Shown here: positions 1 to 42,300 of the stretch, in pieces
Position numbering within the stretch: the first letter of the stretch is position 1
How the letters are laid out: every line of letters starts with the position of its first letter
From: Owenia fusiformis
Taxonomy: Eukaryota; Annelida; Polychaeta; Sabellida; Oweniidae
Reading direction: 5' to 3'
Assembly (NCBI GenBank): GCA_903813345.2
Contig: CAIIXF020000008.1
Coordinates: 30,776,867-30,840,866 of the forward strand
Length of the DNA: 64,000 nt
Translations under genes and position numbers: made by a program
The notes under the pieces: model-generated
Told to the model about the DNA's origin: nothing
Databases searched by the model: none
Seen by the model: only the letters and a program-made list of their open reading frames with translations

Positions 1-2856
1 CTTTTCACACAGTTGATGCAATGGACGGGCTATATTGGAAAATCCTTTAACAAATTTCCTATAGTAGCCAACGAATCCTACAAATGCTCTGACTTCCTTC
101 TGACAAACAGGCGTTTTCCAGTTAACAATCTGCTCAACTTTCTCACTGTCAGTTTCTACACCTTCCCGTGACACTTTATGACCAAGAAAAATTACAGAAG
201 ATTTGAACAGTGAGCACTTCTTGGGTTTCATTTTTAAACCAGATTTTCTTATTCTGTCAAACACTTCTTTTATCTTCATCAAAGTATCTTCGAAGCTTTT
301 TCCCCATGTCAAAATGTCATCGATGTAAAGAAGACAGGATTTCCATTGTAGGCCTTTCAGCACTGTTTCCATCAATCTTTGAAATGTTCCAGGTGCCCCT
401 GTCAAGCCAAAAGGCATCACATTAAATTGATAGAGCCCATCTCTCACTACAAAGCTGGTTTTCTCTTTAGACTCCTTGTCTAACGCCACCTGCCAATAAC
501 CGGAAGCCATGTCAACTGAACAAAACCATTTTGCTCCAGATAAACTGTCTAAACATGTATCCAGTCTTGGTATGGGATAAGCGTCCTTCTTTGTGACGTC
601 ATTCAATTTCCTATAATCGATGCAGAAACGTATTGTCTTATCCTTTTTGGTTACTAACACAATTGGTGAACTCCATGGTGCATTCGATGGCTCAATGATT
701 CCTTTGTCTAACATTTTGTTCACTTCTTCTGTCACCATTTCTTGTTTAGCAAGGGGCTGTCTCCTGGGATGTTGTTTGATTTGGCGGGCATTGCCAGTAT
801 CTATGTGATGTTCTACTACATCTGTCCGTCCTAGATCATCTGAGTTCTTTGCGAAAATATCCCTATATTCTATAAGTAATTTTCGCACTGCTAATGACTG
901 ACTATCATTTAGATCAGTACATGATCTTTTATAAAAATCTTCCAAATATTCTGGTAAATGTTCCTGTTTTTGCTCATCAGATGATGTGACATTGAAAATA
1001 CCTGCATTTTCCTCATTGGCCAGTTCCTTTATATTCGTGACTAGGTCTATCTCACCCACTTTTGTGTTTTTGTAAATGGTTATTGGTTGATCACTTGGAT
1101 TCATAATTCTAATAGGAATCATGTTCTGTGCATTGTCTGTAATGTCAATCAAAGAACGCCCAATAACTAAGTCATGTTTGGTGCTGAATGATTGCGTCTG
1201 TTCTATAACACCTACTTTTCCCTTACTCAAACCACTGATACGATTTACTCTTCCCTTCACTATCATTTCGCACATAGCTGGTATCTGTACGGTTTGATTT
1301 ATCAGTGCTTTCATAACTGGTTGGGAATCGTGTGTCATACATTCAATTATATTTCCATGAATGTTCAGTGTTCCATTGCCAAGATCCAACACCCCTTTGT
1401 TTGCTACCAGAAAATCCATTCCAATAATGGCATCTGTGTTGATTTCGGCAATCCATACTTTCAACGGATAGCAAGTTCCACCAAAGTTCAAAATAATGTG
1501 GCTGTAGCCCACTAGTGGAAGTGGACTTCCGTCAGCATTTTTAAAACTATTGTATGGCGGTACAATGATGTCATTTTCTTTTCCTACACGGTGAAATACT
1601 TGGCTTGAAATAATTGAAATGCAGGAACCACTATCTAATAGAAAATTTACTGAATTTTCCTGAATATTTCCATTCACAAACAATCCATTTTCCATGATAT
1701 TATTCACTAATTCAGTATTACTTAGTCGATCTATTGCTGATAACGCATTTCTTATTTCTTTGGATTGAACGTCATCCACTTCCGGTGTTCCTGGTGTACT
1801 ATTAGTGACTTCCTGTTCTTTAAACCGTTGTAGCTTTTGATTTCGCCAGTATGTATTTCTTTTCCCTGGTTTTCGTGGCGTACCATATTTCTCATGATTT
1901 CTCCTCATCCTTGATTTGTTCCTATTCTGAGAACCAGTATTTGCATTTGAACCGTTAAAATCAAATCTACAAAATTGCATCACGTGTCCTTCATCCCGGC
2001 ATTTCGTACAAAATAAAATGTTTGGACACTCATTCGATTTATGGCTTCCACCACAATTGAAGCATGTCACGACTTCATTTGAATATGGTATATTATGTAA
2101 CTGTTGGACTGAAGTTTCATTATTTCCCATTTGTATACTCTCTAACCTTTCTAACTTATTTTCCAGTTTCGCAATCATAGCTTGTTGTTCCTGCAATAAT
2201 CTTATCATGGCGCTAAGATCAGCTTTATCACTTTGAATTGTTCCAACAAGTTTTGAACGTTGGCTTTCAAGTATTATGTTTGCTTGGCTGAAATGAGAAT
2301 CTAAAACTTGATGAGATTCCCATTCTAATCCTGCTGATATAGCTTGATCTAATGTTTTTGCTTTTGCGAATCTGATAAACGTTTTCATCTCAGGATGATT
2401 CGAAATAGCAGTCATGAAATGATCAAAGGCTAATTCATCTCTCAAAGCATAATCTAAATTAGGATACGCTAATGATGATTGCCTTCGTAAGAACTGACCA
2501 AGTTCCATTAATGTCTCAGACGGTCCTCTCATTTTGGCGTCAAGTTCAACCAAATTTAATGGTCTCTGACTAGGAGAGAATCTAGCTTTCAGTGTATTTG
2601 TTAATACAGCATAATCGTATTTGCTTTCATTTGGTATATCAGTGAAAATTTCCCTAGCGACACCTCTAAGATTCACTGCTAACATGTGTGCTTTCTGCAC
2701 ATCACTCCAACTATTGATATGTGCACATACTTCAAAGTGTGACAGATAATCCTGCCATGCTATTTCGCCACTATATTTGTCTGGCTTTGCTTTGTAATTC
2801 TGTGCTGGGAATAACGTGTCTACCGATTCACTTGCCATTGCTCTATGGCTTTCCAT
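1..2856 (-). CDS. Gag-protease-reverse transcriptase polyprotein (partial, open at base 1)
   Basis: The frame starts at the ATG at 2856, the first ATG after an in-frame TAG about 70 bases upstream, and I saw no stop in the segments checked down to base 1 (952 codons). Order: an N-terminal gag region (about residues 1-240), two zinc knuckles (CX2CX3HX4C starting near 2064, then CX2CX4HX4C), a basic stretch, a retropepsin-type aspartic protease with the active-site triplet DSG (near 1640), a linker, and the reverse transcriptase palm with the YIDD catalytic box (about 318-335) followed by the typical start of the connection region. Gag and pol are in one frame with no frameshift signal. The protein would direct capsid assembly, polyprotein cleavage and cDNA synthesis. 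No signs of decay were seen. Confidence 0.88.
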   Translation of the reverse strand, partial: MESHRAMASESVDTLFPAQNYKAKPDKYSGEIAWQDYLSHFEVCAHINSWSDVQKAHMLAVNLRGVAREIFTDIPNESKYDYAVLTNTLKARFSPSQRPLNLVELDAKMRGPSETLMELGQFLRRQSSLAYPNLDYALRDELAFDHFMTAISNHPEMKTFIRFAKAKTLDQAISAGLEWESHQVLDSHFSQANIILESQRSKLVGTIQSDKADLSAMIRLLQEQQAMIAKLENKLERLESIQMGNNETSVQQLHNIPYSNEVVTCFNCGGSHKSNECPNILFCTKCRDEGHVMQFCRFDFNGSNANTGSQNRNKSRMRRNHEKYGTPRKPGKRNTYWRNQKLQRFKEQEVTNSTPGTPEVDDVQSKEIRNALSAIDRLSNTELVNNIMENGLFVNGNIQENSVNFLLDSGSCISIISSQVFHRVGKENDIIVPPYNSFKNADGSPLPLVGYSHIILNFGGTCYPLKVWIAEINTDAIIGMDFLVANKGVLDLGNGTLNIHGNIIECMTHDSQPVMKALINQTVQIPAMCEMIVKGRVNRISGLSKGKVGVIEQTQSFSTKHDLVIGRSLIDITDNAQNMIPIRIMNPSDQPITIYKNTKVGEIDLVTNIKELANEENAGIFNVTSSDEQKQEHLPEYLEDFYKRSCTDLNDSQSLAVRKLLIEYRDIFAKNSDDLGRTDVVEHHIDTGNARQIKQHPRRQPLAKQEMVTEEVNKMLDKGIIEPSNAPWSSPIVLVTKKDKTIRFCIDYRKLNDVTKKDAYPIPRLDTCLDSLSGAKWFCSVDMASGYWQVALDKESKEKTSFVVRDGLYQFNVMPFGLTGAPGTFQRLMETVLKGLQWKSCLLYIDDILTWGKSFEDTLMKIKEVFDRIRKSGLKMKPKKCSLFKSSVIFLGHKVSREGVETDSEKVEQIVNWKTPVCQKEVRAFVGFVGYYRKFVKGFSNIARPLHQLCEK

Positions 2857-5118
2857 TGCTATATGTTTTTGTATCGTATTTATTCTCTGTTTACTATTCT
2901 GTAATCTCAAGAGTGCAACGTACTATCCCAGTTCCTACATGCAATTCAATTCATTGAAAATTCAAATTCACAACGATTTCACATTTAAAAAGTATTTCTA
3001 AAACATATACATGTTACCAATCTACATTGGTGAGACTTGCTAATGGCGTCTCTGTGTACATTTTCAATTACAGATCTGGGTGATTAAAATCAAAATTTCG
3101 TCTATGTGTATGTACCGTATTTACATTGTATATATTCTCACAAATGGTTACTCGTACTATGTACAATATCCAGTAATCCAGTGTACTAAACAACATAAAA
3201 ATTATATCGCAGGTTATAGGATGAACGTACTATTTAGTTTCCCGTTCACAATCTAGTTTATCAAATCACTGTATCAATTTTCCAATGATCCACACTAGTG
3301 AAAACAAACTTTCCCTACTAAGTATATCTCCAGTAAGTATCTTTCCACCAAACGTTTCATCAACCTATACAATAGGAATAGTTAGAATAGTTCAATATTC
3401 ATACATATGTGTTTCAATGCTTGATTACTGGGTGCGATAAAAAAATGATACACACTAGTGATATTGCTATTAGTTAAATTCCTGTGTTTATCCTACACAC
3501 TGGTTAAATACTCCATGCGAAGTTAGCGTCGAGATTACAACGTAGTGGTGTTGTTAGTCTGAATTTGGGGAAAATAAACGACAATATTATCCAAATTGGA
3601 AAGTTCAGACATAAACCACATATTCCCAACGCTACGCACTGGTGGGGTAAGATTGGTAAGACTGATTGTATTACCATTAAACAAACAATCACATGTAATT
3701 TTCACAGGAACTGGGTCTTTATGACGCCAAGTTCCAACAATGATTTACAATTTTCCCACACTGGTGAGAATGAAATTCCACTATCGACCAAGGTATTTCC
3801 AACACTGGTACGATATCTAACTATAGGTTGTATACAAGCATTTATCACTGTACCAAATCAATTTACATACAAACTCCTAACTACAGTGCATGCAGATATC
3901 ATTATCTTACATTTTGTTACACATGCGTTGCAGTTCCATACCGGTGAGAGTTATTTCAAACAAGATCTTACGTATATCAGAAGATTTATAACTTCCTAAA
4001 ACGGCATCATCTAAAATCTAATTTGCATTCGCATACCCTACCACTGATTACAGTATATGGCAATAAAATTTATGTCGAAATCAAGTGGCACAAATTATAT
4101 GCGAGATCATGTGACAATGAAATTAATGTCTCATCTCGTTCCGTGATTATGTGGGGTGTACGTAAACATAAGCCTGTTAAACAAGATAAAAACTCAGATG
4201 TGGCGTGATATGAATCCTTTGCATGTAAAATACGACAATCAACGTACAATGTTGTTGGTACATTCACTCAAAAGCTAAGTGTTTAGTCAAAAATCATTCT
4301 AATGTGACAAAGAAACGATATGATTTTTAAATACTGCAATCAATCTAGTTCAACTGTACTGATACGTCAAATTCAAGATGAATTTTGTGTATGAATTTGC
4401 AGTCCCCCTAGGCTTGTATCATACAATCATTGCTTTAAATACATTTGTCACATTCGAATTTTCTAATAGTTGGTAGAAAAGCTCAATATAATTCAAAGCT
4501 GTTGAGTTTCCTGAACGCTTTCAATGAAGCATGTAATTGCTAATTCAGTACATATAGGTAAGGTAACTGTTTACTTTCGGTGTTTTAGATAAAAGTTTCC
4601 TTCCCATTGCCTTGTTATACAAACTCGAGCAATAATGTCAAAATGTGAACTATCGTTGCATGACTGGAATGTATACGTCTAATCCTGAGTAACGTTACAA
4701 TGTAGACAGTCTGATGTGCAAACGCCTGATCCTGAGTAGCGTTGCATTATCCTAAGATCAAAATTCTGACATATTGCGAGTGTGAGTAAAGTAAAGGCTG
4801 TTTAAGTTCCCCATGACTTTATACACCAAAACATTTAGTTACCTCACGTCAGTACTGATCGCTTTGAATATTGAAAATGAGCCTAAGACATGAATTGCCT
4901 TGCAAAAATTCGTTTTCAAATGTGACGTTGTATACGTGCGATTGATTGGAGCCTTTGATAAAAAAATACCTAGATAAAATATTCAATTGACAATGTTACG
5001 TGTGATTTTACATTATCCTTTACCCTTCTTACCAAAGTACCGTACCTTTTGCTAGCAATACCTTCTCCCCTTTCACCAGGCTGGAGACGCCGGTTCACAG
5101 CTGTTGTCAATTGCTGTA
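2857..5118 (-). other. Untranslated leader of the retrotransposon
   Basis: This 2.26-kb stretch lies between the primer site and the gag start codon. It holds only short frames with no recognisable domain. A word close to CACTGGTGAG or CACTAGTGA recurs irregularly (near 3290, 3455, 3500, 3637, 3756, 3800 and 3940). The leader is unusually long for this element class; it may hold packaging or promoter signals, or a captured sequence. No function can be assigned. Confidence 0.5.
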
Positions 5119-12770: not shown

Positions 12771-15700
12771 GTAGGTATTTGAAGCTGACTTGGGCTACAT
12801 CATACACAATGAATCTGTGTTGAAGTTAAGGACCATATAAAAACATGATTTCTATAAACAAAACATAAAATGCAGTTTCAAAATATCCAGAAAGCACGGG
12901 CAGAACACATGTTTCTCTTTTTGCCCTACTTTCATTATCCCCACATACTATTCTTGTTGTTGTTGAGTTATTCAAAGATGGTGTCATGTTATCAATAGTT
13001 ATGGAAGAACGAAGTTACGTTTCTTCGTAGGAGTCAAACGATGATTTTGTAAGGAAATGCAGTGTGGAATATTTTTTATATTTAAGAAAAGACAAATCAA
13101 ACCATGCGCAGATTCCATGCAAGACTTGTTTAAAATATATCAACCAATCAAAAGGAAAAGAAAGCCCCAATATCCCAAACTAATGCACAAAGAAACAATG
13201 TCTAACATATTCCTCATTGTTTGAAAAATTCCAGGGGGGTTCACTTGTAACAATTTTGGTCCAAAAATGGCCAAAATCACTTAAAAAGTGCTCAGAATGG
13301 TGAAAAACTGCATGATTTTGAGATTTTTTGGCCAGGGGGGGGGGTCCCTCAAACCCATCGACTCCCCCTGGCTACAGGCCTGATCTAATTAATGTTGAAA
13401 AGTAGGGAAGGGGTCATTACTATTGAGTTACTATCAACATTTACTTTAACTAAGGTGTTCCTGGAATTCTAATGACAAGATTATGTGGCACCCACCCAAA
13501 CCACCCTCTCTGAGAGACACACCCTTCATCACAAGACCCTGACAATATAATATGCACTTTGAAATTGTAAAGATGAAAAGGATACTCGTTGTAAAGTAAG
13601 CTGGATCTCCCAATAGGGGCCGACATTCCCTTTCCCATAGGTATCTCTACACCATCTGGTGTCGTGTATGCTTCACTTGGGTCGGGACACGTCATACCAA
13701 GACCTAGAATATAGTACATTTTTAACATTAATGCATTTCTTAACAAGAGATTATCCCATCTGTTTAACTACTGAAGGTGCAAGCCGAGTTTCAACAGAGT
13801 GAGGTGTAATTTTCGAACTTCCAACAGGTTGCCGAACCTGGTTGCTAGAATACTTGAGAGATAAATGTTAAAGCTATAAACTAATCACTGCCAAAGGTCC
13901 ATGTACAGTATGGCAAGCGATTTTAGACAGTCATATCTTTCACCATGGGTACTTTCTGGCCATCAATACAATGGTTTTTATTAAAACAATATGCTTTCTT
14001 TCAAGTGAAGTCCCCATGGAAGTAAAATATCAATCCAACTCTCTGAAAAATCATGGATTAGGGCCCCAACTTTGCACTTTTTAAAAAATATTAGGCTTAT
14101 TTTCTAAAAAGAGGATCTTGTTTTTCTCAATTAAACGTCTCGGAAGTTTCTTCTACACTATATTAACAATTTCTGAAAAGGGGGAGCATATTGAAATTCG
14201 TTAAATTTAAAAACCACACATCCCATGTTATTTTCCCATAGGGAAAACTCGTGCTATCCATTGTTTTCAGCATCATTTTGGTCATCGAAAATTGATATCT
14301 TCAAAACTAGACTTTCAATACCATTATATTTTTGAAGATTTTTAGACCCCTTGTTGAATAATCTTTTCATGCAATAAAAATCATAAAAAGGAGATCCTCT
14401 TTTGAGTAAATAGGTTCAATATTTTGAAAAAAATGTTGACATGGGGTCCCTATTCATAATTTTTCGAATTGTTTGATTAATAAAAAACAAAACACTGTAT
14501 TTATGCCCAGAAAGTACTCATGGTGAAAAATATGACTGTCTAAAATCACTTGCCATGCTGCACGGGGTCTTTTGCCTCAACAAAATTTGTTGCTGATGTT
14601 AAAGTCAAAGCCATGCACAAATGAATGAATAGCCTAATTTGCCCACAATAAAAATACAAGGCATTAACATGCAGAATATCACCACTTGCCATCTGTTACA
14701 GATTGTTGTATTGTATATCTTTATTGCCCATAATAAAATGGAGATACCATTTATATGTACAGTGATGTAAAATAAAAGTACAAAAAATAAAAGATACTGA
14801 TTGCCAATTGATGTTACAGACGTCAAACACCAACTGCTGAACACCAACCACCAAACATAAGCCACTGCACAAAAAAGTCGAAGACTATAACAATACTTCT
14901 GGTGGTAACATTAAAAATAGTAATTAAATAGGTTGAACTCTTTCGATGAATAAAAAAATAATATTTTTTATATTTTGAGATTATAGTAATACATGCAGTA
15001 AAGTGGAACACCTGTGTAAGTGAAATAAACTGCATGTAAGTGGAACACCTGTGTAAGTGAAATAAACTGCATGTAAGTGGAACACCTGTGTAAGTGAAAT
15101 AAACTGCATGTAAGTGGAACACCTGTGTAAGTGAAATAAACTGCATGTAAGTGGAACACCTGTGTAAGTGAAATAAACTGCATGTAAGTGGAACACCTGT
15201 GTAAGTGAAATAAACTACATGTAAGTGGAACACCTGTGTAAGTGAAATAAACTGCATGTAAGTGGAACACCTGTGTAAGTGAAATAAACTGCATGTAAGT
15301 GGAACACCTGTGTGAGTGAAATAAACTGCATGTAAGTGGAACACCTGTGTAAGTGAAATAAACTGCATGTAAGTGGAACACCTGTGTAAGTGAAATAAAC
15401 TACATGTAATTGGAACACTTTTCAGTCCTGTTAATCATTAACTTAAAACTGCAACATTATTTGAGGTACCAAAGGCAATCTACAGGAATCACAAAATTAT
15501 ACTATTATTTGAATACCTTTTGTGCTGTGTTTTCCTTTTGGAAGCGAAGTCACATATTCAGCTCCTCTCAGTTCATATCTGAAATGATTTAGAATATTTG
15601 TCAACTACATATGTATGTTGCATAGGAAGATAAGATTTAAATCTAAAGTGAGTTTTCAGAATAATTTCAAAAATGATTATGAGGACATGCTCATAATGAG

Positions 15701-18700
15701 CAAAGAAATTCAACAAAATTAATTTAAAATTAAGGAAGTCAAAATTATTCTTTTTTTATACTGACAACATATATAAACTTAAGACTTTACACACTATCCA
15801 ATAGAATGGGTACTTCCAGTTACGGTACCAATCTTTTGAAGGGGTGAAGATTAATACACGCAAAATTGATCACCAGGTTCACTTACTGATTTCCTAAGGC
15901 AACCTCACATAGACCTAACAGGCCAATGGGATCTGATTTTGATGTTCGACAATAGTTAGCACTTTTAGACACCATATCAGCAAAATAGATACCCTTTCCG
16001 AACATGTAGCCAGTCTATAATAAGAGGAAACATGGGATTTTATAGGTTATGGAGTGAAACATTTACAACCCTAAAAACCAAATGAATATGATTTGCGTTG
16101 AATGATCAAACATCAAAATAGTTTGATTTTAAAAAAATTTGTCCACTACATTTCCTTATGTATTAGCAATGACATTATACTCTAAATCAATATTATTAAA
16201 ACATAGAAAAATATAAATATGTAGAATTCTTACAAATGAAAAGAAATAATTTGCTCATAATGTATTGTAAATAACAACTTACAACAGGGGCCTCTGGGGG
16301 TGCAATTCTGAGCCCCTGGGACAGGATTCCAGCGAAGTTAGTAGACCGAGACCCATGCCATAACAACTTCCTGTTCGGTAATGCCTTAAAGGGTTTGTAC
16401 CGTTTCGCTTCACCTTCTCTTTGAACTTTAAATATCTGAATTAAATAGAAATGATGGATTGAGTTGTAAAAAAACATTGTATAACTATTAATTTTCAACA
16501 GCACTATCATAATTATTATTTCAAATGTTATCCCTAAATTGTAAGCCTCAAATTGTTTGCCTCAAAAGGTAAGCCTCAAATAATGACTCAAATAATATGA
16601 CTCAAGTCAAATGGCATGCCTCAAATAACATGACTCGACTCAAATGGCATGCCTCAGATAATATGATTCAACTCAAAGGGTATGGCTCAAATGATATAGC
16701 TCAACTCAAATGGTATCCCTCAAACAATATAGCTCAAGTCAAATGGAATCCCTCAAATAATATAGCTCAAAACAATTGGTATTCCTCAAGTAATATGACT
16801 CAACTCAAATGGAATGCCTCAAACAATATAACTCAAATCAAATGGTATGCCTCATATCGTAAAACTCACATAAGTCTCGAATAATTCTACAGTTCTTACC
16901 TCTTGTACTTCAAGGTCGTACATATTATGCGTAGTTGCGTGTGTGTTAGCGACATACTGCAAGAGGCGCTGATACTCCTCAGAGGAATGATCAAGCGGTT
17001 CAATTTTGGTTTTAAGTTGATCATAATGGTTGTCTATGGGGTCTTTCTCTGCTGATCCTCCCTTCAGTAAGTTGTAAGCGACTTCTATTTCTAGCAGGTT
17101 GTCAATCATCTCGGTCTTTTTCTAAAACACATCAATTTTCTCCATCTTATACGGTAGAGCCATAGCATGTATTGTGAAAGACTCTGAAGATCTGTATCAC
17201 TAGTTCTAGATTACATTTATTAAAAATCATGAAGGTAAATGAAAGGATACAAAAAATAGTTACTGATAACACAGAATTTAAAATGAATTCCCATGCTTTC
17301 ACTTTGCGAAATTAATATTACATTAACATACATGTATATTATTGAAGCAATATGGTGTTACCTTGATGATTTCCGAGCTGTCGAGCAGAGGTGGCTTCTT
17401 CATTCCAAAGTCATGTGGTATTAGGGTATAGAACCTGTTGGACGCATCCAGGAACTTGGTAGGTGTTCCCCCTTTCTCACATAGCTAAAGAGAAAAATGT
17501 CAACATTCAAAAATGGCAACATTTAAAAAATGAAATGCACAAGTCATTTAGGAGGTTAAGCTCTCTTTAAAACATGTAAACTTAGTTGTTTTAATAATGG
17601 AAATTTATTAACAGAGAATAGATACAGAATTTCAAAAATTGTACTTTTATTCTAAAAATGGCAAGATCAATTTCTGTTTACTTACATTTTGTAGTTCAGT
17701 CAAAACTTTATAAGCTTTTTCAATCTGGGACTTGGAGATCTTGCCTAATGGCATCTTCTTTAAATCAATCTGAAAACAAATAATAAACTACTAATTAGAG
17801 AATTTAAGTCCATGTTGCAAAATAAGTAAATACATTATTCCATAGACTCACATTATTTGACAGAAGGAGTTGTAAAAGGATTTGTTTTGATACTGTTTTT
17901 GTCTCTTTATGTTTTTCCAGACATTAAAAATTTATGAATCCTATTTGTTCAGCGTTTACAATCGTCTAAAGGGAGGAAATTACCCAGAATGCATACCTCA
18001 AATTCTAACATGGCTTTTTTCATCTGCTCCACATCGAAAAGAATTCTAACAAGATCTTGTACAGAAACTGGAAGTTTTGAGGATGATTTCGATTTCAGTT
18101 TAAGATTTTTTGAATCATCTACCTCATCCTATAAATAAAGTGATATTTAAATATTTAAAAAAATACATACGGTAGTTTCCATAAAGCTATCTAGAATTGA
18201 TTCAAATTCTATGACAAAAATATCAACTGAGGTCTTAATAGCAAAGATCAGAAAAATCAATGGTAAAAGCACCATAAAATATAGACCTTGGATATTATCC
18301 ATAGAACAAGTTTTAAATGTTTTGTTTCACTTGCTATCACTTATAAATTATAGTTGCAACTCAATACTAGGCATTTACATGGCAAAATGTCACCACCTGC
18401 AAATTGTTACAGTTGAAGGTCAAACAAATCTTAAGTCAGATATGAACTTTTGAGAACTTGTAGCTGATTTTGAAAAAAATGTGGTCATTTTGAAGCAAGT
18501 TATAAAATACTTTTTTGGCCTTTAATATGTTGCTATGGTAAAAAATGTGTTGGCACTCATAACATGTTCATATTATATGTTGACAGTAAGTATATGAAGC
18601 CAATCTAAACAGTACATGTTAAGTTATTGGAAGTTATCAGAATTTGTTAAATAAGCTGACTGCCAAACACTGAACACCAACTGCCCAACACCATAACTGA

Positions 18701-21700
18701 TTTGTCTACAGACTGTCAAATTGAGCTAATAATTTTAATCAAAATCCATACCTCTCCATAATCAATATCAAGAGGATAAAATCTGTTGGGATGTTTCACA
18801 AAATTTTTCCTGTCTTCCCAGTCATTTCCAGTCTTTTCTGAGTATAATGTAAGGAACTGTGATAGAGCCCCTGCCTTAGAGCTATATCTCTCTGTCTTGT
18901 TACCTCCTATAGTGGTTCCTACACGACCCCAGGCTCTAAACACCCAACACCTACAAAATATGATCAGATTATAATGTAAGGAACTGTGATAAGAGCCCCT
19001 GCCTTAGAGCTATATCTTTCTGTCTTGTTACCTCCTATAGTGGTCCCTACACTACCCCAGGCTCTAAACACCCAACACCTACAAAATATGATCAGATTAT
19101 AATGTAAGGAACTGTGATAGAGCCCCTGCCTTGGAGCTGTATCTTTCTTTCTTGTTACCTCCTATAGTGGTCCCTACACGACCCCAGGCTCTAAACACCC
19201 AACACCTACAAAATATGATCAGATTATAATGTAAGGAACTGTGATAAGAGCCCCTGCCTTAGAGCTATATCTTTCTGTCTTGTTACCTCCTATAGTGGTT
19301 CCTACACGACCCCAGGCTCTAAACACCCAACACCTACAAAATATGATCAGATTATAATGTAAGGAACTGTGATAAGAGCCCCTGCTTTAGAGCTGTATCT
19401 TTCTTTCTTGTTACCTCCTATAGTGGTCCCTACACGACCCCAGGCTCTAAACACCCAACACCTACAAAATATGATCAGATTATAATGTAAGGAACTGTGA
19501 TAAGAGCCCCTGCCTTGGAGCTGTATCTTTCTTTCTTGTTACCTCCTATAGTGGTCCCTACACGACCCAAAGCTCTAAACACCCAACACCTACAAAATAT
19601 GATCAGATTATAATGTAAGGAATTGTGAGAGCCCCTGCCTTAGAGCTGTATCTTTCTGTCTTGTTACCTCCTATAGTGGTCCCTACACGACCCCAGGCTC
19701 TAAACACCCAACACCTACAAAATATGATCAGATTATAATGTAAGGAACTGTGATAGAGCCCCTGCTTTAGAGCTATATCTTTCTGTCTTGTTACCTCCTA
19801 TAGTGGTCCCTACACGACCCCAGGCTCTAAACACCCAACACCTACAAAATATGATCAGATTATAATGTAAGGAATTGTGAGAGCCCCTGCCTTAGAGCTG
19901 TATCTTTCTGTCTTGTTACCTCCTATAGTGGTTCCTACACGACCCCAGGCTCTAAACACCCAACACCTACAAAATATGATCAGATTATAATGTAAGGAAC
20001 TGTGATAAGAGCCCCTGCTTTAGAGCTGTATCTTTCTGTCTTGTTACCTCCTATAGTGGTCCCTACACGACCCCAGGCTCTAAACACCCAACACCTACAA
20101 AATATGATCAGATTATAATGTAAGGAACTGTGATAAGAGCCCCTGCTTTAGAGCTGTATCTCTCTGTCTTGTTACCTCCTATAGTGGTCCCTACACGACC
20201 CCAAGCTCTAAACACCCAACACCTACAAAATATGATCAGATTATAATGTAAGGAACTGTGATAAGAGCCCCTGCCTTAGAGCTGTATCTTTCTGTCTTGT
20301 TACCTCCTATAGTGGTCCCTACACGACCCCAGGCTCTAAACACCCAACACCTACAAAATATGATCAGATTATAATGTAAGGAACTGTGATAGAGCCCCTG
20401 CTTTAGAGCTGTATCTTTCTGTCTTGTTACCTCCTATAGTGGTCCCTACACGACCCCAGGCTCTAAACACCCAACACCTGCAAAATATGATCAGATTATA
20501 ATGTAAGGAACTGTGATAAGAGCCCCTGTCTTGGAGCTGTATCTTTCTTTCTTGTTACCTCCTATAGTGGTCCCTACACGACCCCAGGCTCTAAACGTCC
20601 AACACCTACAAAATATGATCAGATTATAATGTAAGGAATTGTGAGAGCCCCTGCCTTAGAGCTGTATCTTTCTGTCTTGTTACCTCCTATAGTGGTCCCT
20701 ACACGACCCCAGGCTCTAAACACCCAACACCTACAAAATATGATCAGATTATAATGTAAGGAATTGTGAGAGCCCCTGCCTTAGAGCTATATCTTTCTGT
20801 CTTGTTACCTCCTATAGTGGTCCCTACACGACCTCAGGCTCTAAATTCCCAACACCTACAAAATATGATCAGATTATAATGTAAGGAATTGTGAGAGCCC
20901 CTGCCTTAGAGCTGTATCTTTCTGTCTTGTTACCTCCTATAGTGGTCCCTACACGACCCCAAGCTCTAAACACCCAACGCCTACAAAATCATATTATAAT
21001 GTAAGGAACTGTGATAGAGCCCCTGCCTTAGAGCTATATCTTTCTGTCTTGTTACCTCCTATAGTGGTCCCTACACGACCCCAGGCTCTAAACACCCAAC
21101 ACCTACAAAATATGATCAGATTATAATGTAAGGAACTGTGAAAGAGCCCCTGCTTTAGAGCTGTATCTCTCTGTCTTGTTACCTCCTATAGTGGTTCCTA
21201 CACGACCCCAGGCTCTAAACACCCAACACCTACAAAATATGATCAGATTATAATGTAAGGAACTGTGAAAGAGCCCCTGCTTTAGAGCTGTATCTCTCTG
21301 TCTTGTTACCTCCTATAGTGGTCCCTACACGACCCCAGGCTCTAAACACCCAACACCTACAAAATATGATCAGATTATAATGTAAGGAATTGTGATAGAG
21401 CCCCTGCTCTAGAGCTGTATCTTTCTGTCTTGTTACCTCCTATAGTGGTCCCTACACGACCCCTGAGGCTCTAAACACCCAACACCTACAAAATATGATC
21501 AGATTATAATGTAAGGAACTGTGATAAGAGCCCCTGCTTTAGAGCTGTATCTCTCTGTCTTGTTACCTCCTATAGTGGTCCCTACACGACCCCAGGCTCT
21601 AAACACCCAACACCTACAAAATATGATCAGATTATAATGTAAGGAACTGTGATAGAGCCCCTGCTTTAGAGCTGTATCTTTCTGTCTTGTTACCTCCTAT

Positions 21701-24700
21701 AGTGGTCCCTACACGACCCCAGGCTCTAAACACACAACACCTACAAAATATGACAGGAGTATATTTGAAGTCTTAAACTTCAAGAAAGTAAGACAACATC
21801 GTTTATGACCTAGTTTGATGACCTTGACCTTCATCCTTGAAAATTCCACTTTTCAGATCCATTAATTTAAACATCAATTTAAATAGATAAGGTCAGATTT
21901 GAACTCCTGAGAACTTTAAAATGATTTTTGAAAAAAAATTGGTCAATTTGAAGCAAGCTGTAGTTTAAAATGGCAGATTCATCGAAAAACTCAAATAGGC
22001 TGCCATGTAATTAAGCAAGCATATCCAAAACCTAATCAGATCTTGGCGCAAGACTGCTCCTGCATCTGTAAAAATTTCTTTCAAGTTGAATGGATAAAAA
22101 GTTTTCCTGGAATTTTGATGACAAGATTTACGGAAAATTCAAAATGCCACCAAGTAATCTATCCAGCATGCCCTAAACCTGATCAGACCTTGACACTAGT
22201 CTGCTCTTGCATCTTCTAAAATCTTAAGTTGAAAAGGTAAGCAGTTTTCAAGAAATTCTGATGGCAAGATTTCATTCATGTGGCGCTGAACTGCACGCCC
22301 ACACATTCATACGCCCGCCAAATCACCCATCAGCACAGCAATATAGCACTATTTAAAAATGTGATAAAAATAGTACTCAAAAACTACTTACGTTGTACCT
22401 TTGTCAGCTTCTAGTATTTGTAGCTTGTAATACGAATTGGTTCCTCTTACAATGTCCACCATTCCTAATATGGCATTATAGATATTGTCTTTCTCGTTCA
22501 GGACGTGAGCTTTATCAGATAAGCCTAAAATTAATGCATGCTTTTTATTTTATTCATGGTAAGGTTTTATACTAAACTTTTAGCAGAGGATTTATTAAAA
22601 TTCATTTATGTTTTACGTTAACTTAAAATTTGTCTCCCGATAATTTGACCTCACAATAATTAAAGATGTGTCCTTACTAAATTGGAAAAACTGCCATATT
22701 TATCTTGTAATTTATGTAATCTGCCAACTGTAGTGTAACGCTCCTATTCTGTCCTGTTAAAATTATCTTTTGACTCATCTCAAATCATCGTTGAAAATTA
22801 TTTCATCTTATTTCTTAATTTTTTTCAAAGATTACATGACATAGAAGTTTCTGTTTTCAAAGAGTTTTCTAAATACAATGACAGGCACCAGAGATCTTCA
22901 TGAGTGTTAAATCACAATCATTGCAAATAAACCAATTGTAGTAAGAGTGCCCGCTAAATGAAACTAACCTGAATCTGGATCAACTGCAGCGCCACCTTTG
23001 ACTTTCATCTTCATTGTTGTCGCAACATTCTTTGTAAACTGCGCTTCTATCAGTGGAAAACAAGATACATTTTTATTTATTTATTTTATTTAAGTGTCAC
23101 CTGTTGTACAAAATAGCCAGCATACATGTATGCAAGATTAAGTGAGTGATGTACATTAAATCAATAGAGAATCAAAACTTTGGGGGATTTCAACCCCAGA
23201 ATGAACACTTATCACTCTTGAGCTAAATATTAATTTTGTCGTAAAATAAACAAACTTACACCTTCAACATACGGATCTGAATCTGCCATTTGGTTTATTG
23301 ATAGATGTACATGAACGATACTTTTAATATAAAAATGTTATCTCCTTCAACCAACATTGCCTCATGAAGGAAAATGAAAAATATGTAAAAAATCAATTCA
23401 TACCTGATTTTTTGTCAACTAAACTTTTACCAAGACTTTTGAAAACTGGTTTCTCTTCAATTCTCTCCATTGGCTAAAAACAAATAAAAGTATGTCAACG
23501 CCATTTTAATGTATGCCCTAGTCAAATGGCGAGGCTACGGCAGACACAGTTCTCTTAAATAGTGACCAATTTGCAGTCGCCTTATGGTTGTCTTTTGGCT
23601 TATCTCTATTTTTACAGGCTGCTGCCATGACACTATAACACCGAATTATAAGTTTTTTTCATTTCTGATCAGATTTTGTTCTTAATGATGGATAAATGAA
23701 ATTATAGTGCTTACATCTGATCCCCAGGAGGCGATACTGTGCTGCTGGATCATCAATAAAGCGCCACCTTTTTCAACAGCATTTATGAAATCTTCCGAAA
23801 TGACATGAACATCTGCTTTTTTGGCATCTTGGATCTTTTTACTGCATTTTGCAACTTCATCTACAAGAACATATACACATGTATTGCATTTATATCTAGC
23901 AGGTGCTTCTATGTTCAAGAATATCCCTTTTGCATAGTATAATAACACCACGTCATATTTCTTTCTCTGGAAAATCTTACCTGGCTGGTATTGCACAGGC
24001 AAGACTTTGCAGACAAGATTTTGTGACAGGCAATCCAAAATGACAACAACAAAATTTACCCAGCATGCCCAAAAACTAATCAATCTTAAATTTTTATACA
24101 AAGAAACATTAAAAAAGTGGGGCTCCATTTTGAACTTGAGTTCTGTCCAAAAACAAGTCACTAATATTACTTGAATTAATATAAGATAGTAAACCTGTTT
24201 AATTGATTCGTAAAATTCCAATGTATTTTAATTTGAAGAACATTCTGCTACGAATTTCCATTACTTCAGAATTTTTAACACGAAACATTGACATACCTTT
24301 TGTACTGATGCAAGCCACTATTTTCTTGTCAATCTTTGAGACAACAGTACCACCTAGTTTAGCAATACTTGCAGTTATCTCATTTTTCGACAGTGAGGTT
24401 TTTCCAATAATCACAAACTTCATGTTGAATAGTGGCTTTTCTGAGGCCCTATAAAAAAGTGAATCAGATTTAGCTAGAAACTTTTCCAAAAAGGTAAAAT
24501 TGCCAGAAATTGTCTCAGTTACTGATTCATTTAAAGTTCATATTCTTCCTTGTCATGCCATACTTTCTAAATATTACCCTTTTAATAGTTCCAACATTTG
24601 AGAATTTCCATTTTATAGAGTGATAGCATCATCCACGTTTATAGAAATATTTATATCAATTATCATTCTATATACAAATATGAGGCTTTGGATAAAAGAG

Positions 24701-33337: not shown

Positions 33338-36300
33338 ATGTCATCGAAACAGAAATCGTCGATTGTTTCGGCGTTCAAGATGCACGGACTCACTTTGAGG
33401 AGGTAATGTTTCTTTTGAATGTGGAATAGAATATACTTTACTAATTTAAGTCAATAGTTTTTATAAATACTTTGCGAATATCCACCTATTGTTACTTGAA
33501 GACAGGCTACTTAAACAGTCACATATTATCGCCCACGGAATATAAACAACACATCTGTCTGCTGTCGATATTATTTATTCTATGTCAATATACCAAAATT
33601 TACTACTTTTTTCGACAATATTCATATTAATATCTAAGGGTTCAGGCTAGGACCCTGCTGAATTTCGTATACAGTGAACCCCATGTGGAGTTCATACTTA
33701 CGGTCTGATACACTGCTTCAAAGGCAAGCAGTTGAACCTGGAAAATAAGAAATCTATAGACCATTGTGCCATAATATATGGAAAAATATATTCATATTGC
33801 ACAGGAATGACATTTGTATATTTCAGATTATTTAATGTTTACCGCAATAACACGCCTGGTGATCGTACAAAAATGATGCAGGGGGGATCAGGCCATTTCT
33901 GCAAGAAAACTCAACAAATTTGAAAGATTTATTTTTTCAAGAGAAAATTTCGGCTGAATTGCCAAATGAATAGGCGCAGTGCATGGCAAAATATGTTAGG
34001 TCATCTAGTATTTTTTTTGAACTGATACCCTTCTAAGATATGAGATCTATTAAAAAAGGCGCATCATCACCAATGTGCAAAAGTCAATGTTTTTGCTATC
34101 AACCGGGCAACAATGGTCTGCACGACCTGTAGTAAATAGGTATAAGGGACGTTATTATCACAATACTTATGACATTGCTCACTTTTTAAAGTTAGTTTCC
34201 ATGCGTTATACAAAAAATAATCTAAATAAATCAATTTGGGATGGAGGGGGGGATTGGATGGAGGGGGGATTTATATATCTTTACGATCATTGAACAAATT
34301 CACAAGAACTCGTGTATTTGAAAAAACTAAACTCAGTACCCCAGTAAGAAACTGGATATTATATAACTGGAGAATGAAAAATGGGTAATAAGAATAAATT
34401 CAAGTAGCACGTCTTATCATGTCTTATAAATGCATGATCTCCCCCTCCATCCGATCCCCCCTCCATCCCAAATTAATTTATTTAGATTATTTTTTGTATA
34501 ACGCATGGAAACTAACTTTAAAAAGTGGGCAATGTCATTAGTATTGTGATAATAACGTCAATTATACCTATTTATTACAGGACGTGTAGACCATTGTTGC
34601 CCGATTTATAGCAAAAACATTGACTTTTGCAAGTTGGTGATGATGCGCCTTTTTTAATAGATCTCATATCTTAGAAGGGTTTCAGTTAAAAAAAAATACT
34701 AGATGACCTAACATATTTTGCCATGCACTGCGCCTGTTCATTTGGCAATTCAGATGTAAATTAATTCTCTCAATAAAATAAATCTTCCAAATTTGTTGAG
34801 TTTTCTTGCAGAAATCGCCTAATCCCCCCCTCCATCATTTTTGTACGATCACTGGGCGTGAATAAACCTGTGCCCTCTTGTAATTTTGAGGTTTCATTAA
34901 AGGCGTCCTTCAATGGAGAGGACGTAAATCAAGATTGGGTGGACGAAAATTAAAAAAATAATTACGTTTTTGGGACGCAATTTGAATTTCGTAAATAACT
35001 TCGTGAATCCACTTACCTTCAGTCTCTTTATTTCGTCAGAATCCACTAAATAATTGAAGGAAATTCTATTTCTAAAAGAAATAAAATTTTCTTTCGAAGT
35101 TTCCTTCCCGGAAGTTGATTCATGATTGAAATAGTACGAGGCATGTGATAGGTCAAATAGTTATCCAATACTCGATATCCGAGCAGTATTCAGTACGAGT
35201 CTTATGATTGGCCGCTAGCTGAGGACCCGATTTAAACCATTTTCTATTGGTCAAGTGCGATCACAAGATCATTATTTAAGAATGTGCATGCGCATGCGCA
35301 AGAAACTGAACCAAAAAATTGAACCTCGCGCAGATTGCCCCTAAACTAAAGCAAAATCAGTCGATAATTGCTTCGAAATACGTAACAGACTGTATACCTG
35401 TATTTCCTAGCATCCAAGGACCAGGGACGCCTCAGTATTTTTCTTGATCCTTCTCCAATATCTTGCCTACGTCAACCAATCTGAAAGTATGGGGAAAGGA
35501 ATATTCTTACAAGTGCTCACTTTGCAAAGGAGACTGCTGCAATCTGCAACACATCTTAAGCTCTTGCTCCCAGTCCTTGAGCGAAGGCAGATACACATGG
35601 AGACACAACAAGGTTCTTCAAGAAATCTTCAAATATGTCGACCAGCAGAGAGGTTTTGCCAATAGAGCAACAATACTGCAACAACAACAGAAGATATGCT
35701 TTATCAAGGAAGGGAAACCCAGAGCTGTAAACACTCCCAAACCACAACCCAAGACAAGTATCTTGGCCAATGCAACAGACTGGAGACACAAGAAGGTTCT
35801 TCAAGAAATCACCAAATATGTTGACCATTAGAAAGGTTTTGCCAATAGAGCTACGGAACTGCAACAGCAACAGAATACATGCTTTATCAAGGAAGGGAAA
35901 CCCAGAGCCGTAAACACTCCTAAACCACAACCCAAGACGGAACTGCAAAATCAACAGAATATATGCTTCATCAAGGAAGGGAGGCCCACCAAAGCCAAGC
36001 ACCTTGGTCAGTAAACCTCTTCTAGAAACTTGTCTTTCCTCAGTATGTGGCTGTAACAACCTTGCGCCCAGACATCCAGGTTATGACTTCCAGCTCGACC
36101 AAGACCATTCTCATCATTTGACCAAAAGTCCCATGGGAAGATAGGCTGATGTTTCGCATGAGATCAAAATAGCGAAATATAGAGACCTCGCAGATGATGC
36201 AAAGACAAGAGGCTTGCACGCATCCATCTTCCGAAATTGGCTGTAGAGGGTTCCCAGCAACATCAGTCAGAACCCTATTGTCCAAGTTAGGACTACAACC

Positions 36301-39300
36301 CAAAGAACTTAAGAAGGCCCTTAAGTCCATCAGCTCAGTAGCAGAGGACAGTTCTCGATGGCTTTGGATCAGAAGAAGAGAAAAGTTGAACCTAAACGAA
36401 AGGTGATCCAGTCCACTTAAGTTCCACTAAAACAATGCTTGTTTATGTGGCCAGCCCACCAGATCACAAGGTGTTCCATATGCTTGCATATGGGCAGGGA
36501 GTATACAGCAGGAGGTGCTTACATGGCCGTACCTGACCACACACTGATATTCAAGCATGTTTTAGTTTCCCCCTTTGGCATGCCATTACCAACCCTAGTT
36601 CAGCATAAGTCATGTAGCGAAGCATTACAGATGTTAAATTAATGATTAAATCTGCTTTTAACCATCATATTGTTTATTTTCTTCCAGTGAGGCCAGCAAA
36701 TATCTTGTGGAAGCCCTGAGTAGCATCAGTGAAAGCGATGTTGCAGAATGCATAGACAGAATCATAGAGTCCATTCAGAAACAATCTTGTAAGTACAAAT
36801 ATGATAGTCAAAAAGAGCCTTTTGAATGTGTTTTATATTTCCTTGATTCACAAGGGTTCAGTTGCTTTAGCTTCATATTATAACCACCTTATAGTATAGC
36901 CTCCACATGTTATATGCACCTTATATTATGAGCACCCCATGTTATAAGCCCCTTATATTATGACCACCCCATGTTATAAGCGCCTTATATTATAGCCACC
37001 CCATGTTATAAGCGCCTTATATTATAGCCACCCCATGTTATACGCACCTTATATTATGACCACCCCATGTTATAAGCACCTTATATTATGACCACCCCAT
37101 GTTATACGCACCTTACATCATGTCTCCTCATTATATGACCACCTTATATCACATTATGGTCAACTCATATTACCTCCTCACACTATAACAGCCTTATATT
37201 GTACTTCTACTTAATTTGGTGGCCCTTTTAATTTGGCAGTTCCGCAGTTCTGCCAAATTGTTAAAGTCCGCCAAATTAAGTAGCTGCCAAATTGCCTGGT
37301 AATTTCAGTACCATGTAAATTATTACCATTAGTACATAGTAATGTTGCAAGTCCGCCAAATGAAGCAACCGCAAAATAAGTAGCGCCAAATTTAGTAGGA
37401 GTACAGTATCATAACAACATCATATTATAGCCACCCAGGCTTATTATAACCACCTCATGTTATAGCCACCCAATGTTATGAGCACCTTATATTATGTCCA
37501 ACTCATAATACTCTCATTTTATAACTGCCTTATTTCATGTAACCACTTCATATTATAACTGCCTTATATCATAACAAAATCATATTATAACTACAGTAAA
37601 ACCTGCCTAAGTGGAACACCTTTGGTACCTCTAAAAGTGTTCCACTTACAAGGTGTTGCACTTATAGAGGTACATTTAGCATTAAGTCATTTGGTCTTGG
37701 GACTCTGAAAAGTGTTCCACTTACAGAGGTGTTCCACTTACAGAGGTGTTTCACTTCAAAGGTTTCACTGTACTTCAAATTATAACCAACTTATATAAAA
37801 AGTACACAGTGAATCTTCTACAGTAGTAGACATGGTGTTTCATAATGACCATCCCCTCAATCCATAGCCAATCCTAGATCATTATACTTTCAACATCATG
37901 GGTTTTTCAGCAACTTTAATAAAGTGTCTGTTATATGTCGATTCAGTAAGTAGTAGTATGTTAGACAGAGCCACAGTGGTAAAAGCTTCTGATATATATT
38001 GAACTTTCCATATGGCAGCTTTCTCAGCAACTTTAAAAAAGTTTCCTCTATTTTTTTTCAGTAAGTAGTAGCATGTTAGACAGAGCCACAGTGGAGCAAG
38101 CTGTGGAGGATTGTAATCAGGAACAAGAAGAAGACAAGTAAGACACTGTATCATAGTCTAGATTTTCAACTTCAACTAAATTCCACACTTTTGTTAAGTT
38201 GGTTATTATGGGAAGGTATGAGAGATCGTTTCATTTAAGTCTAAATAAGCAAGATGACAATTAAGGCACATGGATTGCTAGTCCCATGTGAAGTCAGAAG
38301 AAAAATGTTCAACTTTGCATGTGTTAAAGTGATCTGGTATTGAGTCATTTCAGGGATTTCTGCAGTAGACTGTATCTGCGACTGTATCTTTGATTGAACT
38401 GTATTTTTATTTCCCATATTTCAGTGATAAAGTATTGACAGTGATAGATGCGTTCACAGTTCCAAGATACACATACATGACAGAGAGAAAAAAGTTTTTA
38501 TCGTAAGTTAAATGTTTTCAAATAGTTAACACAGAAGCTTCTAAAGTGATATACATTTAAAAATCACATTATCAAAATGTCAGAAAATTTTTTAAATGTC
38601 TCAAATGTCCAGCTTTTCTTTAATCAATTGTTTTGTCTCTCCAGAAATAAGGCCTTGGGTATTGCAGACCCGTGTATCCATGGTGATTCAAAAGACAAAG
38701 TAGATCTCTTTAGAGACAGATACACAATACTTCATCAGGTAAAAGTTTACTTTTTTCAGAGGTACCTTAAGGGACCGACTTATTTCTGAAAATCGGTATA
38801 AAATACCTCAAAACACTTCTAAAAACTATAAACAAAGTCAAAATTTCGATTTTATATTTTTCTACCCTTTAATACCTTTGATTATATGGAAGGTATAATA
38901 CATGTTTATTATACCATCGAACAAAGTTCGGAGGGATACAGGAAACGCCTCCGTCCGTCCGTACGTACGTCCGTCCGTCTGTCTGTCCATCCGTCCGTCC
39001 GGGCAATAACTCAAATACCGTTGGCCCGATTTTGTTCATATTTTGTACACATATACCTTATGGGGGTAGAAGTTCTGCTCGAAAGCCGATATTCAAAATG
39101 GCCACTCATTTCAAAATGGCGGCCATTTTAGTGCCGATTTTACAGTAATTTAGGTGCAATATGTAAAACTGTTATAGCAATATGTTTTAAATGTAAAAAA
39201 ATTATAAAGGACATTAATAATGCTACAAATGTAGGTATTAAAGACGCACATGGCAGCCATCTTGAAAAATGGTGGCCTTTACTCGTCATTTTACGATTTT

Positions 39301-42300
39301 TGCTATAACTCAAAAAATAGTGGAGCGATTTTGTTCATATTTGGTATGTGAATACTATAAGCATTGTACACTGTCTTAAGACACTTTTGGTAGAAGGTGG
39401 CCATTTTGAAAAATGGCCGCCATTTTAACGTATTTTACTATAACTCGAAAAGTAGTGGAGCAGTTTTTTCATATTTGGTATGTGAATACTATAAGCACGG
39501 CACACTGCCCTATGACACTTTTGGTAGAAGGCGGCCATTTTGAAAAAAATTTTGAAAAATGACCGCCATTTTAACGTATTTTACTATTATTATCGAAAAG
39601 TAGTGGAGCAATTTTGTTCATATTTGGTATGTGAATACTATAAGCATGGCACACTGTCTATTTCTAATGACACTTTTGGTAGAAGGTGGCCATTTTGAAA
39701 AATGGCCGCCATTTTAACGTATTTTACTATAACTCAAAAAGTAGTGAAGCGATTTTGTTCATATTTGATATGTGAATACTTTAAGAATGGCACATTTTCT
39801 TATAAAACTTTGGGGAGTAGTCGGCCATTTTGAAAAATGGCCACCATTTTTATGTGTGTTATTTTACAAGTACGTGTGCGATTTTTCAAAAATTTTAGAG
39901 GTGGCTACTGAAAAGCATATTATTTCTTCCGATGACAACTTGGCTAGTGAGCAACCATTTTGAAAATGGTGGCCTTTCTTATGTGTGTTGTTTTATGATA
40001 TTTGCTATTCGTTTGTAAAATGCCAGCCATTTCTGTTCGATGGGATTCGCTACGCTTTGGCGTTGCCGTTGTTCTGGTTTATATATTTTATGACAAAGTC
40101 AATATGTAGGGAGATTGTAACGAATTTATTTGGGTTAAAAAAACAAAATTCTAGATTGGTTCAAAAAGGTGGTATTTTTAGGAAAACCTGAATGATCCTA
40201 AACTATTTAGTGATGTAACTTGCCAGAAAACTGCTACTCGAATAAAGAACAAGTAAAACATTTTTTGGTTTACACCTCTATTGTCTTAACAACAGAATGA
40301 TATACATTGTAATGTTATTGTTTTCATATTTTAGAGAACATCTCGACATGATTTATTCACCCCAACTGTAATTGGCTCACGGGACACAAAGGCTAAAAAG
40401 TTTGAACTTAAACCAATCGAATTCTTACTTGGAAGTACTGCTAAATTAGGCGACATTATCGTCCTTGGAATGCTTACTCAGTTAAAGGAGGTATGAAATA
40501 AAATGTGTTTTTGGTTTGGTTTTGTTTTTTTTTGTTTATAGATCAATGAGAGCATGTAACAGTTAACAAACGTATGACTTTAGAAAGTTGAAGAGGAAAT
40601 GTAAAACTTCTGTCTATTTTATCACATCTCTCTCTACTGAATTTCAGAAACTACAAAGAGTACCTTATTTTCTGAAGTTATGTGAAATAATTCCAATATT
40701 TTCATATGCATCATCATTTCATCATTTTAACACTGAAGAAGTGAGTAGCTCCCATAATACTATCGTACTCTTTCAAATTAGGGGATTCCCCTTAGCTTTC
40801 CCGTATGGTCATACAAGCCTTATATGGATCTATCACATGATATTCAAAATGGTGGACAATGGTCAGTTGGATTCTTATATGGTCCTATTAGCCTCGTCTA
40901 TTTTGAATGTTCTACATAGAGGTGTTCAATTAGACATTTTTTACTGAACATACCAAATACCTGTTTGTAATTACATGTTTTTATGTTTCAGGGAAAATGG
41001 TTTCTAGAGGATCCCACTGGTGCTGTACAGTTAGACCTTACAAAAGCTGTATCCTTTTACTAAGTACCATGTTATCAAACTGTGTTTAAGTAAGGTTTAG
41101 TATAAAACCAAACAGTCAGTCTTTTTAAAGTTCTATCACATTGACAGTGTTATTTATAGTAGAAAAATTATTTCAAAATAATGCAGTTTTTCACCATTTT
41201 GAGCACTGTTCAAGTGATTTGGCATCAAATTTGAAGCCCCTCGCCTGCAATTTTCATAAATTGAACCCCTTGGCTAAACTTGGCTTGGCCTTGTGCCCTG
41301 GACAGTATGTTCATTTTCACCTTTTCAGTTTCATACTCAAATTTCAGTGACTCTTCATTTAAGATTTTTACTGTGTAGATGTTACAGAAAATTATGGAAG
41401 CAGTAAGAAATGTATATAAAATTAGAGAAATCAAGTCCATATTCTTCTTGAAAAACATCTGCATTGATGGTTCGCAATTTCAGTATTTTTTCCACGAATT
41501 GAAACCCATGACTAAATAGCTCACCGAATCCATTTTGATATTTAAAACACTCTGGTTTAATTATGTTAAATAAAACTGGAATAATTCCAAATATATATAT
41601 TGACTTAACTTTTGTCAAGAATTTCCACACAGGCTTATTTACGGAAAATAGTTTTGTTCTGGCGGAAGGTTGGTACGAGGATGAGCTGTTCCACATCAAC
41701 GCATTTGGTTTTCCTCCCCCAGAACCATCCAGAACCACCAGGTATTAAAATTAGAGTTTACGGGCTTGTATGAATGTTCTTGTTCACAGGGTTACCTAAA
41801 TATGCAGACTTATTTTTCCAATTTTTGGGTTATCATGTAAGGTTGTATATTTTCCATTTGAAAGTCTTTGAATCCATCATATTCTTTTACATCTGAACCA
41901 TTTTGAGTCATGGTTGTTGACTTTATTTTTGTAATGTGGCAGATTTTTATATATGCATGTGATTTTTCATCTCAGTAACATTCCAGAATGACTTTATAAG
42001 AAAAAATAAAAAAAATTGATAAGTTTATACATGTAGGATACATGTGATTGTGACAAAAACATTTGCCATATGGTACTAGCTGAAAAAGCATGACAATTAT
42101 TTGTATTTACATGTAAAAGAACACTTTTGTTATTTCAGGAATTTCTTTGGAAATATAAACTTTTTCGGAGGGCAGTCAGAAACCAGTGTGAAGGCATCGT
42201 CAAGGTTACGGCAAATCGAGCAAGAAAACGAGACAGCCATGTTTGTTTTTCTTTCTGATTTATGGCTAGATAATCTAAAGGTGAGTTACCCATTTCATTT

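Follow-up and report, generated by a model that had tools for sequence, protein, structure and literature searches.

The 64,000-nucleotide stretch of the Owenia fusiformis genome analyzed here (hereafter, the window; contig CAIIXF020000008.1, positions 30,776,867 to 30,840,866) contains the gene for PARP1 on its minus strand, and in intron 16 of this gene the intron 16/exon 17 boundary is repeated as 22 tandem copies ("decoys"), all of which include a splice acceptor. We consider it probable that this array is a minisatellite of the mirage type, as described in lancelets, which remains in exchange with the real exon 17 and is tolerated by splicing. The evidence comes from the structure of the units, the distribution of variants among them, and a second array of the same layout in a kinesin gene.

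Tandem array at the intron 16/exon 17 boundary

The PARP1 gene model, for which exons were placed by hand using AG/GT junctions and a single open frame, comprises 26 exons that encode one intact product of 998 amino acids when the last copy of the array is used as exon 17 (Table 1). The product matched PDB chain 9mi8_A (full-length PARP1) over query residues 2–997 with 1110 bits, and contained the Pfam domains zf-PARP (two stretches), PADR1, BRCT, WGR, PARP_reg, and PARP, with the WGR match at aa 539–618 and the regulatory domain beginning at aa 651. The start of exon 17 falls within the WGR domain, and its first 108 nt correspond to the array unit. Intron 16 is the longest among the 25 modelled PARP1 introns.

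Tandem Repeats Finder (TRF) detected one array at 18843–21753, with a period of 128, 23.0 copies, and 95% matches, and counting by acceptor on the minus strand also gave 23 copies, i.e., 22 decoys plus the real exon 17 at 18950. An initial annotation of this DNA had proposed about 22 tandem starts of the WGR-domain exon at 18951–21756, each with its own acceptor and all upstream of the real exon; number, span, and order agree with our results, the decoys running from 21740 down to 19078. The annotated unit of about 127 bp was close to the observed lengths (122–129 bp), whereas its division into 106 bp of exon and 21 bp of intron is replaced by one of about 108 and 16–19 bp, a split judged by eye. 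The units lie directly upstream of exon 17 and lack both the second half of this exon and its donor, and the authentic intron 16/exon 17 boundary and the intact PARP1 gene remain beside the array.

The decoy acceptor sequence is TTTTGTAG, in place of which the decoy at 20477 has TTTTGCAG, and the junction preceding the decoy at 20980 is shortened. The AG was kept in 22 of the 22 decoys. This retention is not evidence in either direction, because almost no loss is expected, by our estimate, at the divergence of the array; selection on the kept AG sites was considered and set aside, as there is no power at that divergence. When the genome assembly (498 Mb, 525 contigs) was searched with about two units, a search that scores the best candidates only, there were 20 matches among those listed, all of them within the PARP1 array.

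Table 1. Features of the PARP1 locus and of the kinesin array. Positions are those of the window unless a contig is given; a slash marks an exon/intron boundary.
Feature	Position	Strand	Description
PARP1 gene	12742–33281	−	Coding exons 1 (33281–33162) to 26 (12814–12742), 998 aa
Exon 16	22392–22524	−	Ends AC/GTAAGT; true upstream partner of exon 17
Intron 16	18951–22391	−	3441 nt, of which about 2.8 kb is array
Real exon 17	18752–18950	−	199 nt, WGR domain; ends GAG/GTATGG
22 decoy units	18951–21756	−	About 108 bp of exon 17 start plus 16–19 bp of intron end with acceptor
First decoy unit	21633–21756	−	Keeps unique intron flank ACTCCTGTCATATTTTGTAG
Decoys, first exon-like base after acceptor	21740, 21613, 21485, 21356, 21229, 21102, 20980, 20855, 20730, 20605, 20477	−	
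Decoys, first exon-like base (continued)	20350, 20222, 20094, 19966, 19841, 19714, 19589, 19461, 19333, 19205, 19078	−	
Inner donor-like site GAG/GTAACA	18898–18903	−	+47 of real exon 17
TATACTC, one end of 7-bp direct repeat	21757–21763	−	Intron just upstream of array
TATACTC, other end of 7-bp direct repeat	18840–18846	−	Exon 17, straddling unit end
Kinesin array	G000:C2:23265600-23270000 (locus L038), positions 746–3589		Period 159

Probable sequence exchange among the units and a second array in a kinesin gene

The exon-derived part of the decoys showed 20 distinct types of substitution relative to the real exon 17. Among the 9 types found in two or more decoys, 8 were synonymous and 1 was nonsynonymous; among the 11 types found in a single decoy, 1 was synonymous and 10 were nonsynonymous, one of them a stop. 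This contrast, devised after the data had been seen and based on few sites in one alignment, gave a Fisher p of 0.0009, or 0.0028 when indels were counted as nonsynonymous. The changes confined to one unit are consistent with an absence of coding constraint (synonymous: 1 of 11, versus 28% expected, p 0.20). In other words, new changes look unconstrained, and the common ones look filtered through the functional exon. The comparison of shared with private variants between units is new here.

The real exon 17 was no more distant from the decoys than the decoys were from one another (means of 5.18 and 5.22 differing columns, respectively), and at three sites it has alleles that are present in just 3–5 decoys. 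All four allele combinations occurred in 28 of 55 informative column pairs, some of the columns representing one indel. Four-combination pairs and equal distances, the pattern of repeat turnover (concerted evolution), were thus found within the array. Judged from the sequences, this variant pattern suggests that the real exon 17 exchanges sequence with its decoys by unequal exchange or conversion. A PARP1 paralogue that could serve as an outgroup for dating was sought among the WGR matches in the genome and none was found, the remaining matches lying at three sites. These three loci, which by eye resemble other PARP genes (PARP2/3-like), had no repeated WGR matches in the profile search, the one array check made there.

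An array of the same layout was found in a kinesin gene. Searches with five protein families were read by eye (listed matches: ADH_N, 38; kinesin, 144; ABC, 25; myosin, 92; kinase, 144); the lists are incomplete, and such searches detect only arrays within the searched domain. Among the listed matches there was one regular, near-identical array, namely 18 kinesin matches spaced at about 159 bp on contig C2. It consists of 17 decoys, each with an intron end, an acceptor, and an exon start, followed by the real exon, which comes last and has a donor, and all 17 decoys reach a TAA directly beyond the end of the motor-domain match. The polymorphic types shared by kinesin decoys were 6 synonymous to 1 nonsynonymous, and the lone private type was nonsynonymous; three synonymous types for which the 17 decoys are fixed were excluded from the contrast test. 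When both arrays were pooled, the ratio of synonymous to nonsynonymous types was 14:2 for shared and 1:11 for private types (Fisher p 5e-5; p 2e-4 when linked sites are merged or indels are included). The occurrence of a further array in a different gene points to their repeated formation in the Owenia fusiformis genome. Tandem repeats with a period of at least 25 were present in 12 of 30 kinesin loci, two of which are apparently the same stretch.

A kinase match pair (G000:C10:2256896-2257205, about 1498–1811 of locus L041) was examined as a third array and rejected: it comprises two diverged, complete exons for the same segment, which are probably mutually exclusive exons. Separately, twelve spaced matches to roughly one segment of the myosin head (profile about 18–84) at G000:C9:37986009-37994334 look like a cluster of alternative exons. 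Within PARP1, the array in intron 24 (15001–15418; 37-bp unit, 11.3 copies, 98% matches), which appeared acceptor-like by eye, was rejected as a second decoy array: the AGs of this array among the top-listed sites scored 1.1–1.5 on the matrix described below, whereas the real exon 25 acceptor reached 11.8, no more than 9 bases of the unit match the PARP1 coding sequence, and the unit has relatives dispersed across the genome. Minisatellites are present in several PARP1 introns, including a 33-bp tandem array of 8.7 copies in intron 21 (16583–16868). Elsewhere in the window there is a 134-bp tandem repeat of 4 copies (39287–39850), which perhaps belongs to a dispersed repeat, and a 183-bp repeat of about two copies (35598–35938), in which more than one frame is open.

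Splicing of the array and alternative explanations

Splice sites were scored with matrices trained on PARP1's own sites (23 other acceptors and 25 donors), and the scores are rough given this small training set. The acceptor of the real exon 17 scored 7.8, a mid-range value, with 10 of the 23 other PARP1 acceptors scoring lower in a leave-one-out comparison; 26 of 1588 background AGs reached this score, and the array acceptors are better than chance AGs. The decoy acceptors are nearly identical, as had been annotated: 19 of 22 decoys carry the same 22-mer as the real exon, the exceptions scoring 10.8 (first unit), 6.1, and 8.3. With 22 bases in common between these 19 decoys and the real site, the local sequence of the acceptors cannot account for which one is used. 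The real exon 17 differs from the decoys mainly downstream, where it has 91 further coding bases and a better donor. Its true donor, GAG/GTATGG, scored 9.5, versus 6.7 for the donor-like GAG/GTAACA, which occurs at +47 in 21 of the 22 decoys and at +49 in unit 3, and whose hexamer GTAACA also serves as the true donor of PARP1 exon 20. With an acceptor and a donor-like site, each unit could act as a poison exon of 47 nt. Recursive splicing at the acceptor TAG/GTGTTG was considered and is unlikely, as the regenerated donor scored 1.0 (2.5 in decoy 11).

Decoy use was then simulated on the gene model. Reading through from a decoy acceptor to the true donor gave a stop at aa 575–606 in 22 of 22 cases, and the last exon junction lies 1237–3905 nt downstream of these stops. 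A stop at aa 575–594 (22/22) followed when a decoy was joined via its inner donor to the real exon, and one at aa 575–626 (22/22) when the final microexons were chained in numbers from 1 to 22. Use of the inner donor of the real exon 17 resulted in a stop at aa 585, and skipping of exon 17 in a stop at aa 571. Seven of the 22 decoys are in frame and end at a TAA, and the other 15 have a frameshift indel. The stops caused by decoy use thus fall in or just beyond the WGR region, and the annotated outcome of such use, a run of WGR codons and then a stop ahead of the catalytic domain, was reproduced in all 22 read-throughs. Messages with stops well upstream of the last exon junction are, as a rule, degraded by nonsense-mediated decay (NMD). 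Because the stops lie far upstream of the last junction, NMD of decoy-derived PARP1 messages is likelier than the truncated PARP1 without a catalytic domain that the initial annotation had envisaged, although the early stop of that annotation stands. That annotation was right about the gene, the exon, the acceptor, and the copy number; the +47 donor, the mirage kind, the kinesin array, and the exchange pattern were absent from it.

A mirage-type minisatellite could have arisen as follows. A segment across the intron 16/exon 17 boundary would have been duplicated in tandem, perhaps via the 7-bp repeat TATACTC, since recombination between its two copies (Table 1) would duplicate exactly the array segment; this origin step is weakly suggested. 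Unequal exchange would then have expanded the duplication to 22 extra copies. The real exon 17, as the last copy, would still join in the exchange, so that selection on the exon would filter which variants become common, and the decoys would otherwise decay freely. Splicing would tolerate the array through exon definition, because only the last acceptor precedes a full exon with the true donor, and occasional use of a decoy would yield an early-stop mRNA that is degraded.

Several observations weigh against this explanation. The acceptor of the first decoy (10.8) has the top acceptor score in intron 16, above that of the real site, and this decoy is transcribed before the real exon 17. The +47 donor, at 6.7 on the full matrix, falls inside the range spanned by the true donors, of which 12 of 25 scored lower in a leave-one-out comparison, and the decoys are therefore not clearly inert. 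The typical junction between units, ATTATAATCTGATCATATTTTG, is not the exact product expected from recombination between the TATACTC copies, so that either a few bases were changed before amplification or another route was taken. Two frameshift indels are common to 9 and 5 decoys, respectively. Similarity between units did not rise with their proximity (rho 0.03, permutation p 0.36), and with no signal in the order of units along the array, no direction of growth is visible; the use of this order as an age series was rejected for the same reason. The variant contrast has the post hoc character stated above, the kinesin array by itself gave no significant contrast (p 0.25), and the kinesin acceptors scored low on the PARP1-trained matrix (real, 3.7; decoys, 1.3–3.7). 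Finally, that splicing tolerates the array is what we infer to be most likely, a reliance on inference that is to be counted on the same side; the array is also probably nearly neutral.

One alternative is a regulated off-switch, in which 22 units of an acceptor plus a weak donor engage the spliceosome without being included, detain intron 16, and lower PARP1 output, possibly in a manner dependent on copy number. The sites themselves would suit such a function, the acceptor of each unit being the same as the real one, or nearly so, and followed 47 nt downstream (49 in unit 3) by a donor-like site, and inclusion of a unit gave a stop in every case tested. However, 47 nt is short for exon definition, 15 of the 22 units have frameshift indels, single-unit changes look unconstrained, and the similarly built array in the kinesin gene speaks for a process general to the genome instead of regulation of PARP1. 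A decoy exon brings about the detention of human OGT intron 4 (PMC12017769), but regular splicing is reportedly undisturbed by the mirages described in lancelets (PMC3087553, PMC3902484). On balance, an off-switch is unlikely. We also hold as very doubtful its extension to a copy-number rheostat of PARP1, in which 22 poison units detain intron 16 and the same device operates in the kinesin gene. If the real exon exchanges with the units by unequal crossing-over, the PARP1 level would then vary heritably with array length, and, if the idea were true, might differ even between cells.

That reads or haplotypes were stacked in the assembly, with a small true copy number, has a lancelet parallel, since one mirage there seemed to be aberrantly assembled in a genome draft (PMC3087553). 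The chance of such an artefact here appears slight: many units have private changes, exact repeats within the array reach 180 bp at most, the contig extends over 30.8 Mb or more, and the kinesin gene holds another array of similar length. There is little likelihood, too, that the birth of introns is underway, with the +47 donor and the acceptor of the next unit defining introns of about 80 nt as raw material within the WGR region. Every unit does have a donor and an acceptor, duplication of a boundary made a new intron in potato RdRp (PMC4974935), and a similar route was proposed for mirages in the globin paper (PMC3087553); however, all 22 chains of consecutive microexons hit a stop (aa 575–626), and no tested product would therefore be useful now. 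A cluster of mutually exclusive or repeated exons adding WGR variants would likewise consist of one coding segment in tandem copies, but is extremely improbable, as the units lack the second exon half and the donor, 7 of 22 are in frame and end at TAA, 15 of 22 are frameshifted, and the diverged, complete exon pair in the kinase gene looks quite different.

The PARP1 array makes a near-ideal natural experiment on how splicing picks the right acceptor. Its variant pattern suggests that sequence can continue to pass between a functional exon and a stack of its own defective copies, while selection on the exon shapes the repeats. Furthermore, such arrays can be counted genome-wide and related to RNA data and intron gain.

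Comparison with known systems

The PARP1 units share with the kinase pair the tandem copying of one coding segment, but differ from it in that the kinase copies are diverged and complete with their own donors, whereas the PARP1 units are near-identical half exons. Each copy in a mutually exclusive cluster is a complete open exon; in PARP1 the exon end was absent from the units, and stops arose in 22 of 22 read-throughs.

The original paper on mirage minisatellites is reportedly that of Canestro et al. in 2002. In the later literature, mirages are tandem repeats across an intron/exon boundary, with AG/GT signals in many units, and have been described in lancelet Adh3, two globins (BflGb6/BflGb9), troponin C, and PGBD5; they show length instability, and RT-PCR (reverse transcription PCR) suggests that regular splicing is undisturbed (PMC3087553, PMC3902484). 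As in these mirages, the PARP1 unit crosses an intron/exon boundary, the authentic exon adjoins the array, and the units keep splice signals. A similar layout is that of BflGb6, in which, as in PARP1, the 3' end of an intron and the 5' part of an exon are repeated; its units are 150–160 bp long and number 6 and 3 in two haplotypes, compared with 22 decoys in PARP1. The host also differs, Owenia fusiformis being an annelid, and the PARP1 array is known from the sequence of one assembly. Family searches of the genome gave three matches to the annelid haemoglobin linker family, one of them with weak similarity to a haemoglobin linker in the PDB (E 0.0024) and another with no match there. Matches to the GFP family and to mollusc haemocyanin were absent, as they were in the control genomes of both searches, and COX1 was not found; the linker matches and the lack of a GFP-family match hint at an annelid host and not a lancelet. 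No report of a mirage in PARP1 or outside lancelets was found among the open-licence papers listed.

Two further systems share single features with the array. The new intron in potato RdRp arose when a segment spanning an intron/exon boundary was duplicated in tandem, its donor being derived from the exonic segment (PMC4974935). The span of the duplication and the supply of a donor by the exonic copy are the same in PARP1; however, potato has one duplication and uses the new intron, whereas PARP1 has 22 units, and none of the products tested is open. In human OGT, a decoy exon with weak 5' splice sites causes intron 4 to be detained (PMC12017769), and the PARP1 units likewise combine an intronic acceptor with a donor that is weak by score, inclusion of which would bring a stop; OGT differs in having one decoy exon and demonstrated detention, as against many copies of an exon start in PARP1. 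Compared in this way, the array, as read from its sequence, fits the structural features of a mirage minisatellite.

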